Assembly: GCA_019187105.1 (NCBI GenBank)
Contig: JABAQM010000001.1
Coordinates: 434,001-498,000 of the forward strand
Origin: Fimbriimonadaceae bacterium
GTDB lineage: Bacteria; Armatimonadota; Fimbriimonadia; Fimbriimonadales; Fimbriimonadaceae
Direction: 5' to 3'
Length of the DNA stretch: 64,000 bases
Position numbers and translations under genes: made by a program. Shown in pieces: positions 42,517 through 63,706 of the stretch (the stretch's first letter is position 1; each line of letters starts with the position of its first letter). Below the pieces are notes generated by a model. The model was not told the DNA's origin and made no database searches. It worked only from the letters and a program-made list of their open reading frames with translations.

Positions 42517-43158
42517 TTACGCGGCCAAGCTAAGCTCGCCCGTGCCGCCGCTTTCGTAGATCGTAAACGTGTTCGAAGCCGGGCTCATGTTGTCGCCGTT
42601 CTGCGCGAAGACGCGGAAGGTGACCGTCGTGCCTGGCGTATAGCCTTCCAGCGTGACCGTCGACTTGCGCGTGATCGTCACCGTATCCCAAGCGCCGTCG
42701 CCCACGCGCTGCTCGAGCACGAAGTTCACGCCGTAGGTGTTGCCGTTGCGCTTCCACTGGAACCGCACCGTGCCATCCACGCGCGGCTCGCCGATAAAGT
42801 CGAGCGGCGTTTGCGGGTTGATCGGTCCGCGGTCGGTGTCGCGCGGGACGAGGCCGATCGCGCTGATTTCAGCATCGTCGACCGCGGTGTTGGCATAGAA
42901 CTTGGCCGCATATTCGCGAACGATGTTCAGGAGCGCGGCGCGGTTGATGCGCTTCTGCTCGACGGCGGCGCGATAGGCGGTTTCCTTGGCGGTGAGGTTG
43001 GTCATCGCGCCATCGAATCCGGTAACCGCGGTATTGATCGCGGTGAGATCGGTCGGGGACAAGGAATAGGTCAGGGGGCTGGTGTTCGCCACGGTGTAGA
43101 AGTTCTGCGCCCAGATCAGGAGGGCGGCATCATTCAGGCCTTGAAAATAGTTAGCCAT
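42517..43158 (-). CDS. Fibronectin type III-like protein, unknown role
   Basis: A 213-residue protein with no signal peptide. The first 100 residues are helical (MANYFQGLNDAALLIWAQNF ... RAALLNIVREYAAKFYAN). The second half contains VRFQWKRNGNTYGVNFVLEQRVGDGAW and GYTPGTTVTFRVFAQNGDNMSPASNTF, which is the strand pattern of a fibronectin type III domain. ATG at 43158 starts the helical region. Similar two-part proteins are often found as virion- or toxin-associated accessory proteins, but nothing adjacent supports that here, so I leave the function open. Confidence 0.7.
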   Translation of the reverse strand: MANYFQGLNDAALLIWAQNFYTVANTSPLTYSLSPTDLTAINTAVTGFDGAMTNLTAKETAYRAAVEQKRINRAALLNIVREYAAKFYANTAVDDAEISAIGLVPRDTDRGPINPQTPLDFIGEPRVDGTVRFQWKRNGNTYGVNFVLEQRVGDGAWDTVTITRKSTVTLEGYTPGTTVTFRVFAQNGDNMSPASNTFTIYESGGTGELSLAA

Positions 43159-43376
43159 CTTTGTTGTTCTCCAATTGATTCTTGCCGGGTGATACACGCC
43201 CGCTAGGGGTTCTATCGGAGGGTTTGGGGATGTTCTTTAGGGGTCCATTTGCAGAACTTGGGGATGTGGGCTCGGGCTCGAGCCAGGTTTGGAGGACGAA
43301 AACCAGTCGGCCACGCGGCAAGATTACGGTGAATAGGCTTGCTCAACGCATATAGGATCGGGAATAATGAGAACCT

Positions 43377-54878: not shown

Positions 54879-57800
54879 TGCTCAACCGCCTGATCGAACT
54901 TAGCCTTCGTAATCGCGTGCTCGTCGTGGTGCTGACCCTCATGGTCATCCTCTACGGCCTGATCGCGATTCCCAAGATGGACGTGGATGTCCTGCCGGAC
55001 CTGAACCGCCCGGTCGTGACGATCATGACCGAGGCACATGGAATGGCGCCCGAAGAGACGGAAGCGCTGGTGAGCTTCCCTATCGAGACAATGATGAATG
55101 GCGCGACCGGCGTGCAGCGCGTTCGCTCCGCTTCGAGCGCGGGTTTCAGCATCGTCTTCGTCGAATTCGACTGGAACACCGACATCTTCCGCGCTCGGCA
55201 GATCGTCAACGAAAAGCTCCAGCTCGCACAGGCTCGGCTACCGGAGGGCGCGGTCGCTTCGCTCGCGCCGATCAGCTCGATCATGGGCGAGATCATGCTG
55301 ATCTCCCTTTCGAGCAAGGATGGGAAGACGCTCCCCATCGACGTGCGCTCGCTAGCCGATTTCGTCGTTCGCCCTCGGTTGTTGGCCGTCCCCGGAGTTT
55401 CCCAGGTCGTTCCAATCGGCGGAGGTTCGAAGCAGTATCAGGTTCTAACCTCTCCCGCACGCCTGAAGCAATTCGACGTCACGTTGGATGAGCTTGTCGA
55501 GGCGGCTAGGGAAAGCAACCTCAACGCAGGCGGTGGCTTCTTCCAGGAACCTCAGCGCGAAGCGGTCATTCGCATCCAGGGCCGGGTGCGCGATCTCGAC
55601 GATATTAAGAACACGCCGATCAAGTCGGTCGGCGGCGTTCCTATCACGATTGGCCAAGTCGCCGACGTGGAGTTTGCCAAGGGATTGCCGAGAGGCGATG
55701 CCAGCGTCAACGGCAAGCCGGCAGTCATCCTCTCGGTGCAAAAGCAGCCCGATGCGAATACCTTGTTGCTGACGAAGCAACTCGACCAAGCATTAACCGA
55801 AATCTCAGCCACGCTACCCGCCGACGTACAAATCAACCGTGAGCTGTTCCGGCAGGAGCACTTCATCAACAACGCCATTTCCAACGTTGTTAGTGCGCTT
55901 GGAGAAGCGGGCATCATCGTTCTCATCGTCATTCTCGCGTTCCTCATGAACGTTCGAGCGACGGTGATTTCTCTGGTCTCGATTCCGGTTTCCTTTATCC
56001 TCACGCTGCTGCTTCTCTCGCGTTTCGGAATCAATATCAACACGATGACGCTTGGGGGACTGGCGATTGCCATTGGCCTCGTCGTCGATGACAGCATCGT
56101 GGACGTCGAGAACGTATTTCGGCGGTTACGGTTGAACGCTGCTTCAGCCGAGCCGAAACCCCCGTTGCGCGTGATTTATAGCGCGAGCGCCGAAGTGCGA
56201 AACAGCATCGTCTTCGCCACCCTCATTATCGTGCTCGTGTTCGTGCCGCTTCTGTCGCTCGAAGGCATGGAAGGGAGGGTGTTCCTGCCCCTTGGCCTGG
56301 CTTTCATCTTCTCGATGATGGCTTCGCTGATCGTCTCGCTGACCGTCACCCCTGCTCTTTGCGGACTGATGCTGAGAAAGACTGGAAAGACTGGACACCG
56401 CGGCGATTCCAAGCTCGTAACGTTGCTAAAGAAACTGAATGGCCCCACTGTGCGGTGGTCGCTCGAACATCCATGGTTGGTCATCGGGTTTCCGGCCGTC
56501 CTGACCGTCGGCGCTCTCGCAATGCTGCCGATGCTGGGCCGTGAGTTCCTCCCCAAGTTTAACGAGGGCTCGCTCGCCCTAAGCGCGATCCTGCCTCCAG
56601 GAACCAGTCTTGCCGAGAGCAACCGAATTGGCACAATCATCGAACGTACGGCGCTTACCGTTCCTGAGGTCAGGCATATTGGTCGCCGCACGGGCCGCGC
56701 CGAGATGGACGAGCACGCTGAAGGCGTCAACTACTCGGAAATCGATATCGGGCTCAAGGAATCGAGGCGAGGACGAGAAGCCGCAACCGAGGAACTGCGC
56801 GAGAAGCTGACCAAGATTCCGGGCGTGTTCGTGGCGTTCGGACAGCCGATTTCTCACCGGCTCGACCACTTGTCCTCGGGCGTCCGTGCGGCGCTTGCGG
56901 TAAAGGTCTACGGCTCAGATTTGAGCGAGCTCCGGCGTCTTGCCGCCGATGTCGAAGGCACGATGCAAGGCATCGCCGGAGTCGTCGACTTGCAGGTCGA
57001 ACCCCAGATCGAAGTGCCTCAGATCAGCATTGAAATCGATCGCAAAGCTGCCGCCCGGTACGGAGTCACGTCGTACGAATTGGCCGAGAATCTCGAAGTA
57101 GCGCTCGGAGGTCACGTGGTGTCGCAAGTGTTGCAGGGGCAGCGAACGTTTGACCTAGCCGTGTGGCTCACGCCGGATGCGCGCAACGATCTCTCGGTGA
57201 TTCAGTCCACGCTCGTCAACACCCCGTCCGGACAGCGGATACCTCTTTCACAGCTCGCGACCGTCAAGCGGGACACGGGTCCGAACACGATCAACCGGGA
57301 GAATGTTTCCCGCCGAATCGTCGTGCAGGCGAACGTTGAAGGGCGAGACCTCAACAGCGTCGTGACGGAGCTGCAATCGAAAATGGTGCCAATGCAAACC
57401 AGCTGGCCGCGCGGCTACTACGTCGAGTACGGTGGACAATTCGAGGCCCAGCAGAGCGCGATGTCTCGAATCCTGTTCCTTGGAATCTTCACCGTCATCG
57501 CGATCTTCCTCCTGTTGAACGTCGCCTTGCGTTCGTGGCGGATGGCTCTACAGGTCATGGTGAACCTGCCGATGGCACTTGTCGGCGGCGTCGCCGTCCT
57601 GTTTCTAACCGGCGGAATCCTGTCGGTCGCCTCGATGGTTGGCTTCATCACACTCTTCGGCATTGCGACGCGAAACGGCATTATGATGCTTTCCCATTAT
57701 GTGCACCTGATGCGAGAAGAGGGCGTCCCATTTAGCAAAGACATGATTGTCCGTGGCACGTCTGAAAGGCTTTCTCCGGTGCTGATGACCGCCTTGGCAG

Positions 57801-61944: not shown

Positions 61945-62055
61945 TCCTGTTCCTGGGTGCCCCGGGTTCGCAAGCGCCAACCCGGGCGCGGAGCGTTCCT
62001 GATTCCATCATACAACGACCGTCGGCCGAAGCCAACTGGATCGGCTGCCACACGC

Positions 62056-62140
62056 AAGCCCCAATGGGGCGATATCCGATAGCCCAGGGCAACGCCCTGG
62101 GTCCGGAACCTGAGATCCAAGCCCTGTAGGGGCGACATCC
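62056..62140. repeat. Paired 22-bp repeat around a CCCAGGGC hairpin
   Basis: Two 22-base copies at 62056-62077 and 62119-62140 both run AAGCCC...GGGGCGA(T/C)ATCC and differ at four or so positions. Between them, CCCAGGGC-AAC-GCCCTGGG at 62083-62101 is a perfect eight-pair hairpin. Copies of similar repeats occur in several phyla in my memory. Confidence 0.8.
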
Positions 62141-62238
62141 AGGGAGATTGGGACGTCGAACGCCGCAACCCTCTTCGGAATGCCTGACGACCGGGGGCGT
62201 TCCGTACTTGTATGTTCACCCCCGGGGAGGGGGAGAAC

Positions 62239-62302
62239 GGCGTGAGAACATTGAGGGGGCCAGCGTAGGGCGGAATGTCTGAGCTTTTCCCGACCCCCAC
62301 CC
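62239..62302. repeat. 65-bp dispersed repeat, copy 2
   Basis: Second copy of the element at 58155-58219, one G shorter. It is flanked by imperfect CCCCCGGGGAGGGGGAG (62220-62236) and ACTCCCCCTGGGAGGGGGAG (62323-62342) hairpin sequences, which may be parts of the same repeat family. Confidence 0.85.
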
Positions 62303-62556
62303 CCGCACGCGCTCGCGGCGAGGACTCCCCCTGGGAGGGGGAGAACGGGGTGAGTCGTGGGTCGTCATTCCCAGCGTGCTCAGTGATCGAAGTGCGGGTC
62401 GGGTTGGTAGCCGGGTCTCGGGGGTTCGGGGTTCGCTGTACGGGGAGATGGAACCGCCACGACCCGCCTGGCTGCGCTGCTGCAGAGAGACCATGCAGAC
62501 AGAAGTCTACCGATGAGGTCTTATCGTTAAGTTTAAGCTACAAACCTGCCGATACA

Positions 62557-62793
62557 AACCTGAAGAATGGGAGAATCAAGCTTATTTCTGCGAGACCTAA
62601 GCTGGGAATTGGAAAAAACAAGCTGGAGAATCAGAGACTTCAGTCTGTTTCTCACCTTCTTAAGCTTATTTCTCACCCAAACAAGCTTGAGACTGTGAGC
62701 TTTCAGTCTGATTCTCTCAGACATAAGCTTGATTCCGTGGGAAATAGACTTAAGCCTGGGAAAAACAAGCTTAAGTCGGAGAGAAACAGGCTT
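62557..62793. repeat. 12-unit 21-bp phased degenerate repeat array
   Basis: Six-base cores start at 62557, 62578, 62599, 62620, 62641, 62662, 62683, 62704, 62725, 62746, 62767 and 62788, always exactly 21 apart. The cores read AACCTG, AAGCTT, AAGCTG, AAGCTG, CAGTCT, AAGCTT, AAGCTT, CAGTCT, AAGCTT, AGACTT, AAGCTT and AGGCTT. The 15-base spacers vary but often hold GAGAA or TTCTC near mid-spacer. AAGCTT is self-complementary. Because 21 is two helical turns, the cores face the same side of the helix. Translation gives heptads ending in Asn-Lys-Leu on both strands, a consequence of the sequence rather than proof of coding. Confidence 0.85.
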
Positions 62794-62877
62794 GTTTTTC
62801 GCCGCCTGCGGGAGGAGAGTGGGGGCTGGTTGTCGTCGATCCGATCGCTTATTGGGAAATTCGCGGGAGGGAGATAG

Positions 62878-62940
62878 GCAGGCGGCACGCCTGCGCTACA
62901 ACAGAAAGCGACCGGGATAAGCAGGCGGGACGCCTGCGCT
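62878..62940. repeat. Two more palindromic repeats of the 42.4-kb type
   Basis: GCAGGCGGCACGCCTGCGCT at 62878-62897 and GCAGGCGGGACGCCTGCGCT at 62921-62940. The second is the reverse complement of the 42376 and 42421 copies with one added base; the first differs in one base. As at the other site, copies come in a pair. Confidence 0.85.
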
Positions 62941-62998
62941 CCATTCGTGCTGCCGACCGCGCGTTCGCAATCCTCGGCGCTTCCGCACCTTCCCGCAC

Positions 62999-63706
62999 TT
63001 ACCGGGGGCCGCTGACCTGCTCCATGCGGTAAGCGATATAGCCCGGCTGGCCTTGGAAGTTGACGGGATGGGTTCCGGCGGCGTGGAGCACGATCCCCGT
63101 GGCGCGGCTGATGTACCACGTGTTCGGGGGGCCCGATTCGATCGACATCACCGGGTTATCATTCGCCTTCAGCCGCGATTCGATGCGATAGGCGGAAACG
63201 CCGTCGAACGCCTCGATGCCGAGCAGGCGGTACCGATACTCGCCGGCGAGCGGGCCGCTCGTCATGCGCTCCTTCCACTCGTGGCCGATTGGCACGGGCA
63301 TGGGGGGAAACTCCATATCCACGCCGGTGGAATCGTCATCGGGCACGTCGATGCCCCCCATCTGGAGCGAGATCGTCCGGCCGGTGGGCCCGCGCCGTTC
63401 CTCGAACGACAGGCCGCTGAGCTCCTGGAAGCTGGACCGCGCGCTTTCAAAGACCTCGCCGTGGCCCGAGACGTCCGCGGTGAGGAATCCGACGCGAAAG
63501 GTCAGCGACGTGGCGGTTTTGGCGATGAGCTCCTGCCGAAAGAACGAGGTGAGCTTCAACCGGCCGTAGCCGGCAAAGCTCATCTCAAGGTTCATCTGGT
63601 GGCAATAGACATCGCCAACCTTGCTCTTGACCCGCAGGTGGTGGAGCTCCTGGAGTGGAGGCGCCACCGGCGTGGCAAGGAACAGCTTTAGGGCGAGGGC
63701 GACCAT
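62999..63706 (-). CDS. Hypothetical protein, member of a tandem paralogue pair
   Basis: A 235-residue protein. The leader MVALALKLFLATPVAPP may be a weak signal peptide. It is beta-rich, with DVPDDDSTGVDMEFPPMPVPIGHEWKE in the middle and the end NTWYISRATGIVLHAAGTHPVNFQGQPGYIAYRMEQVSGPR. The same C-terminal pattern occurs in the next gene at 63769 (NIWQISQRTGMILHASMNLPININGRMGYCEWKIEQLSGPR), so the two are tandem duplicates. I recognise no family. It follows a repeat-rich region. Confidence 0.72.
   Translation of the reverse strand: MVALALKLFLATPVAPPLQELHHLRVKSKVGDVYCHQMNLEMSFAGYGRLKLTSFFRQELIAKTATSLTFRVGFLTADVSGHGEVFESARSSFQELSGLSFEERRGPTGRTISLQMGGIDVPDDDSTGVDMEFPPMPVPIGHEWKERMTSGPLAGEYRYRLLGIEAFDGVSAYRIESRLKANDNPVMSIESGPPNTWYISRATGIVLHAAGTHPVNFQGQPGYIAYRMEQVSGPR

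Follow-up and report, generated by a model that had tools for sequence, protein, structure and literature searches.

The window analysed here is the whole stretch of 64,000 nucleotides from a Fimbriimonadaceae bacterium, and near one of its ends lies an array of short repeats that raises a simple question: by what, and for what, are twelve units sharing only half of their nucleotides held in an exact 21-bp register? The initial annotation, made from the letters alone, had proposed a phased array that a protein could bind along one face of the DNA, an interpretation that turned out to be partly supported.

Anatomy and surroundings of the array

62557..62793, no strand assigned: 21-bp lattice array of 12 dyad-symmetric units, consensus AAGCTTGATTCTGAGAGAAAT, called from a lag-21 peak and a symmetry of 0.92
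62526..62554, plus strand: sigma28-like promoter match (GTTAAG...GCCGATA, 11/13) at the left end of the array, reading into it

The core starts follow 62557 + 21k (k = 0 to 11) with zero slips, in the order AACCTG, AAGCTT, AAGCTG, AAGCTG, CAGTCT, AAGCTT, AAGCTT, CAGTCT, AAGCTT, AGACTT, AAGCTT and AGGCTT, confirming the twelve exactly spaced cores that had been claimed as well as the five AAGCTT palindromes among them (5/12). The core score of the array is 59 of 72 (12 units, period 21), the best 12-unit core score at period 21 in the rest of the window is 46, and the other periods tried, from 18 to 30, give best scores of 42-50 in the window. Self-identity is 0.49, 0.46 and 0.54 at lags 21, 42 and 63, and the joint lag score is 0.522, compared to a runner-up of 0.418 and a background mean of 0.282 (sd 0.026) across the window and 20 stretches sampled from its genome. 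The array is the top lag-21 signal in about 0.42 Mb of its own genome, which was sampled by stretches for this comparison. On average, two units are identical at a fraction of 0.50 of their positions, the 12 units are free of indels, and the spacers vary strongly, as had been noted. TRF detects just the final two units, and GC content is 41% in the array vs 59% in the window.

The self-complementarity that the initial annotation assigned to the cores is indeed present in them, but it spans the full 21-bp unit. This unit is an imperfect palindrome that has two axes, the first within the AAGCTT core and the other within the spacer; far from being random, the spacers share in this symmetry. Dyad symmetry of the column profile is 0.92 vs a null mean of 0.37 and a null maximum of 0.73, and none of 3000 column-permuted arrays reached 0.92. 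When the 24 half-sites are read outward from each dyad, the consensus is CTT-R-W-K-TCT-S, in which position 4 is a purine in 23/24 and position 10 is G or C, likewise in 23/24, and two half-site types occur, each in both orientations. Comparison of left and right arms gave a pairing of 0.39 within units vs 0.46 between units (p 0.91). The arms pair no better within than between units, and the symmetry thus characterises the kind of site and does not reflect hairpins; the half-sites are exchangeable, and local hairpins or cruciforms kept by pairing are ruled out. Predicted curvature of the array is high, about 4% of column-permuted arrays being equally curved, and this fraction runs from 0% to 78% in other arrays, so inconsistent from one to the next that intrinsic curvature is just a candidate common property.

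It is also conceivable that the array acts as RNA, either as a leader or as a small RNA, with 21-nt units that engage in pairing or in protein binding much as tandem-repeat antitoxin RNAs do. The array does fold better than dinucleotide shuffles (z -4.7), and class-wide some other arrays fold better than column shuffles. However, the window array shows no folding gain over column-shuffled arrays (z -0.96 and -0.75) or unit-order shuffles (z +0.4 and +0.8), controls that rule out a specific RNA fold, its units are just 50% identical, and an Rfam search returned no match on the array itself. Together with the arm comparison, the lack of a unit-specific RNA fold indicates that the symmetry is best read at the DNA level, and we consider an RNA role improbable.

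The array lies in a stretch of about 1 kb (61981-62998) between two minus-strand ORFs, which holds several other repeats and is devoid of any credible gene, in agreement with the gene-free, repeat-rich region described earlier. The flanking ORFs gave no match in a Pfam search, and the flanking gene 62999-63706, which was used as an anchor, has homologs outside its own genome that are all distant. Also in this stretch, a near-threshold match to the Acido-Lenti-1 RNA family was observed at 62057-62101 on the minus strand (35.4 bits, gathering score 37). Two repeat pairs flank the array, one at 62219-62246 and 62327-62354 (CCCCC.GGGAGGGGGAGAACGG.GTGAG) and the other at 62873-62900 and 62916-62943 (GATA.GCAGGCGG.ACGCCTGCGCT.CA), and the stretch seems to collect REP-like elements. 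The array resides on a 3.3-Mb contig, and blastn against plasmids gave no match.

A class of 21-bp arrays and its link to a gene family

A blastn search with the array sequence found no relatives of it in 60 related genomes, plasmids and phages, and in searches of its own genome the sequence is present once. An AAGCTT-phased search of the own genome and the class returned just the window array plus a short array of about 4 units in one relative (G014). As a search control TTCGAA was substituted for AAGCTT, which led to 21-bp arrays with TTCGAA cores in three relatives (G085, G034 and G086). Scanning species genomes for exact matches to four TTCGAA cores then gave at least 117 stretches in many phyla; among the matches listed, 42 of 117 are without a frame that stays open well beyond the array, and many others are coding or homogeneous. 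Other intergenic 21-bp arrays, in relatives and other phyla, carry the cores TTCGAA, CACGTG, CCATGG and CTGCAG, and most are symmetric; for the 34 arrays scored in other phyla, symmetry is significant (p<=0.05) in 23 and not in 11. Arrays inside one genome have mutually unrelated sequences. The search for further 21-bp phased arrays that the initial annotation had suggested has therefore been productive in relatives and other phyla alike, and it is well supported that the window array is a member of a widespread and apparently undescribed class that preserves period and dyad symmetry and leaves the sequence free. We define this class by an exact register of 21 bp through five or more units and by a dyad-symmetric unit, a position directly upstream of a helix-Fn3 gene (see below) being customary but not obligatory. 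In the open-access literature we found no published description of a symmetric 21-bp array class.

A lag scan of 1.22 Mb of the own genome and its relatives uncovered more non-coding 21-bp arrays of unrelated sequence, which lie beside one gene family, here called helix-Fn3. Its members are about 210 aa long, are helical in their N-terminal half, carry a fibronectin III (Fn3) domain on the C-terminal side and usually end in AA. The Fn3 assignment comes from a profile comparison with PDB (columns 108-197), the Pfam fn3 match being weak, and an AlphaFold model of the window homolog, built on a 3-sequence alignment, reached a pLDDT of 44, too poor for a structure search. In alignment A1 most members end in AA, often LAA, resembling the ssrA degradation tag, and have no obvious signal peptide. 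The own genome has four family genes, one of them in the window:

42520..43158, minus strand: helix-Fn3 family gene, 213 aa (E 1.7e-72 in the whole-genome search; Fn3 by PDB profile)
43213..43240, minus strand: sigma28-like promoter match of this gene, CTAAAG-N15-TCCGATA (spacing counted after G), 12/13, a sequence match

This gene is without an array of its own, and upstream of another of the four, which lies at contig position 3194404, a 21-bp pattern is present that is weak and degenerate (score 0.45). Beside the window gene, from 43379 onward on the plus strand, lies an ORF that by eye appears to be adenine-specific DNA methyltransferase-like.

Calling an array at a lag-21 score of at least 0.5 within 420 bp upstream of an ORF, we found one upstream of 29/52 distinct family homologs vs 7/1061 control ORFs (Fisher 1e-36). 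In all 29 the best lag is 21 or 42, and periods such as 18, 24 and 27 are the best lag in none. Four species of one genus (G085, G086, G084 and G021) have 21-bp arrays 5' of orthologous or closely related genes, and the array sequences are unlike each other, the closest pair excepted. The link was replicated in three genomes of other phyla, in which 38/48 family genes have an array vs 24/317 controls (Fisher 5e-26), distributed as 9/10 homologs in Spartobacteria, 21/28 in a Phycisphaerae MAG and 8/10 in Tannerella. These genomes were reached via TTCGAA arrays, and their homologs were then scored whatever their array sequence; the family HMM was seeded from an array-adjacent gene, which may bias the closest homologs but not this control comparison. 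The link between array and family gene is strong, not universal, and some family genes are without an array (0/3 and 1/3 family genes with one in G293 and G304). The Phycisphaerae MAG (G292, 3.5 Mb, the genome of locus L272) holds 58 family matches, and most of those checked have their own 21-bp array. Two loci depart from the 21-bp rule upstream of family genes, L320 with a period of 15/30 and L430 with 44. The arrays may collect in the AT-rich, dispensable neighbourhoods where the helix-Fn3 family lives.

These data also bear on the proposal that the arrays encode a coiled-coil or fibre protein built of heptad repeats. There is one open frame per strand in the window array, its translation can be divided into heptads in which KL recurs at set places, and viral and genome contigs contain many homogeneous TTCGAA or AAGCTT arrays that have the appearance of coding sequence; the pattern matches examined in viral contigs were mostly of this homogeneous kind, and no helix-Fn3 family gene was found there. 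Nevertheless, repeats of 21 bp can be expected to keep a frame open, since a heptad free of stops is simply repeated, and the palindromic unit makes the two strands read alike. Moreover, three other arrays (L295, L284 and L206) have stops in all six frames, the array of G034 has a 1-bp slip, prolines fall within the heptads, Pfam gives no match, and periods of 18, 24 or 27 are absent upstream of family genes. The poor fit of a coding explanation noted in the initial annotation therefore stands, and we regard coding as highly improbable.

Beside the window array itself, no family gene or convincing remnant was found between position 57000 and a point some 22 kb outside the window on that side (only E>=0.15), and the closest family gene is 20 kb away; the array is thus an orphan, without an adjoining family gene. 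Other orphan arrays occur in G014, G085 and G034, the one in G014 lying between a long ORF and an ORF resembling succinyl-CoA synthetase alpha. In G291, G292 and G299, arrays are found near apparent housekeeping genes, and array-rich genomes have arrays by unrelated genes. Three times an orphan array was seen 6-20 kb from an array-less family gene, on contig C39 of G034, on contig C163 of G085 (L042, L041) and in the window, which may be coincidence or reflect a separated unit.

The 5' regions of family genes are further enriched in CTAAAG followed by GCCGATA (CTAAAG-N15/16-GCCGATA), 15-16 bases after TAAA, a motif that we take to resemble the sigma28 (FliA) consensus. Sites scoring at least 11/13 are present in 13/49 family 5' regions vs 6/720 random control pieces, and in the window, both strands considered, the top match is the site at 43213..43240 on the minus strand, 5' of its own family gene. 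In several family genes the promoter-like site lies between the array and the start codon, and at L314 and L326 the array ends close to the start of the -35 element. For the RNA role considered above, the position of arrays directly 5' of ORFs and the site at 62526-62554 reading into the window array are in favour, but where the promoter lies between array and gene the array is outside that transcript. The site at 62526-62554 is among 8 in the window, both strands counted, that score at least 11; its gap is 17 vs mostly 16 in family genes, and its order, promoter and then array, is opposite to the array, promoter and gene of the family. As a promoter reading into the array it is suggestive only.

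A proposed phased lattice of operator-like sites

We read the window array, with a probability only slightly above one half, as a helically phased lattice of operator-like sites to which a symmetric DNA-binding protein would bind and which would normally regulate helix-Fn3 genes in cis. Since 21 bp correspond to two helical turns, every dyad would face the same side of the helix, a dimeric or polymerising DNA-binding protein may occupy the array as a lattice, and this protein lattice may set the activity of the neighbouring promoter. A unit of two helical turns with a single dyad is well suited to a dimer or to polymerised dimers, which makes a regulatory lattice by a promoter the most economical reading. 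The one-face binding proposed in the initial annotation is therefore compatible with the helical phasing, but a single shared sequence-specific protein is unlikely because the array sequences differ even within one genome. Instead, each helix-Fn3 protein or another local factor might read its own array, the reader might be an architectural protein recognising period and shape, or the arrays might stem from a ruler-like process of 21 bp and be merely tolerated in place. The window copy would be either left over from an array-gene unit that was lost or moved, or an array standing on its own, as happens near housekeeping genes where a genome is rich in arrays. Counting against the lattice, the promoter-like site of the window reads into the array and not away from it, and no family gene adjoins. 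The family genes lacking an array, the 11 of 34 arrays without significant symmetry, the arrays by unrelated genes and the uneven predicted curvature likewise speak against it.

The ruler-like process can be extended to a full explanation, in which dedicated amplification or template switching with a 21-bp ruler generates a non-regulatory satellite, which accumulates 5' of the genes of a dispensable and fast-evolving family, in regions that tolerate it, half-units flipping at the palindromic cores. One period with unrelated sequences from array to array, the unrelated genes adjoining arrays in array-rich genomes, and two half-site types in both orientations are what such amplification would leave. 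Against it, zero slips in 12 units at 50% identity are unlike neutral decay, the link to one gene family recurs strongly across phyla, and half-site positions 4 and 10 keep a two-letter constraint (23/24 each). We hold this origin to be rather unlikely.

Beyond the lattice at this locus, a more general proposal, which is tentative and on balance doubtful, would be that several phyla keep such arrays by a machinery that reads the 21-bp period and dyad symmetry and not the sequence, with helix-Fn3 proteins as partner or product and a private array sequence for each gene. Cis elements are normally recognised by their conserved sequence, and a class that conserves just spacing and symmetry would escape ordinary motif searches. 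Its recurrence across phyla and its tracking of one uncharacterised family point to a novel DNA-binding, regulatory or array-making mechanism, and the linked helix-Fn3 genes make this mechanism directly testable.

Comparison with known repeat systems

Among described repeats, PARCELs are coding tandem repeats of 75 nt (25 aa) with dyad symmetry, widespread in bacteria (PMC2996958), and are ruled out by the period of 21 in the window and the mostly non-coding nature of the class. A survey of prokaryotic satellites covers intergenic tandem repeats and finds non-coding dispersed satellite families to be rare, and the parts of it available to us report no symmetric 21-bp class linked to a gene family (PMC6749651). 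REP/BIME palindromes are dispersed, intergenic, alternating in orientation and linked to the RAYT transposase gene family (PMC2817692). In contrast to these, whose sequence is common across the genome and has no 21-bp tandem register, the window array sequence occurs once and no transposase is linked to 21-bp arrays, and REP/BIME was rejected. A CRISPR array, with near-identical repeats and unique spacers of about 30 bp, was likewise rejected, in accordance with the initial annotation, the units having an identity of 0.50 and 15-bp spacers that are similar to each other.

Type III toxin-antitoxin loci of the ToxIN kind have a gene for a small protein with an array of tandem repeats immediately in front of it, and in this position the 21-bp arrays are alike. 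Their RNA units, however, are nearly identical and longer, whereas those of the window array are 50% identical with no fold beyond column-shuffled arrays, and the helix-Fn3 protein is not ToxN-like by Pfam or PADLOC; a type III antitoxin RNA was rejected accordingly.

In phased operator or centromere arrays, such as plasmid iterons and those of the ParR/parC type, repeats about two helical turns apart allow a protein to read one DNA face, a spacing shared by the window array. Iterons of a replication origin are asymmetric direct repeats by a rep gene, and they were rejected, having already been called a poor fit in the initial annotation, on the symmetric unit, neighbours without a Pfam match, the 3.3-Mb contig and the absence of plasmid matches. 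A centromere of the ParR/TubR type would adjoin partition genes; in a general Pfam search the flanking ORFs have no match. Iterons and ParR/parC-type arrays use one near-identical sequence per replicon beside a rep or par gene; in the 21-bp arrays, by contrast, the sequence differs from array to array, and the linked gene encodes a helix-Fn3 protein.
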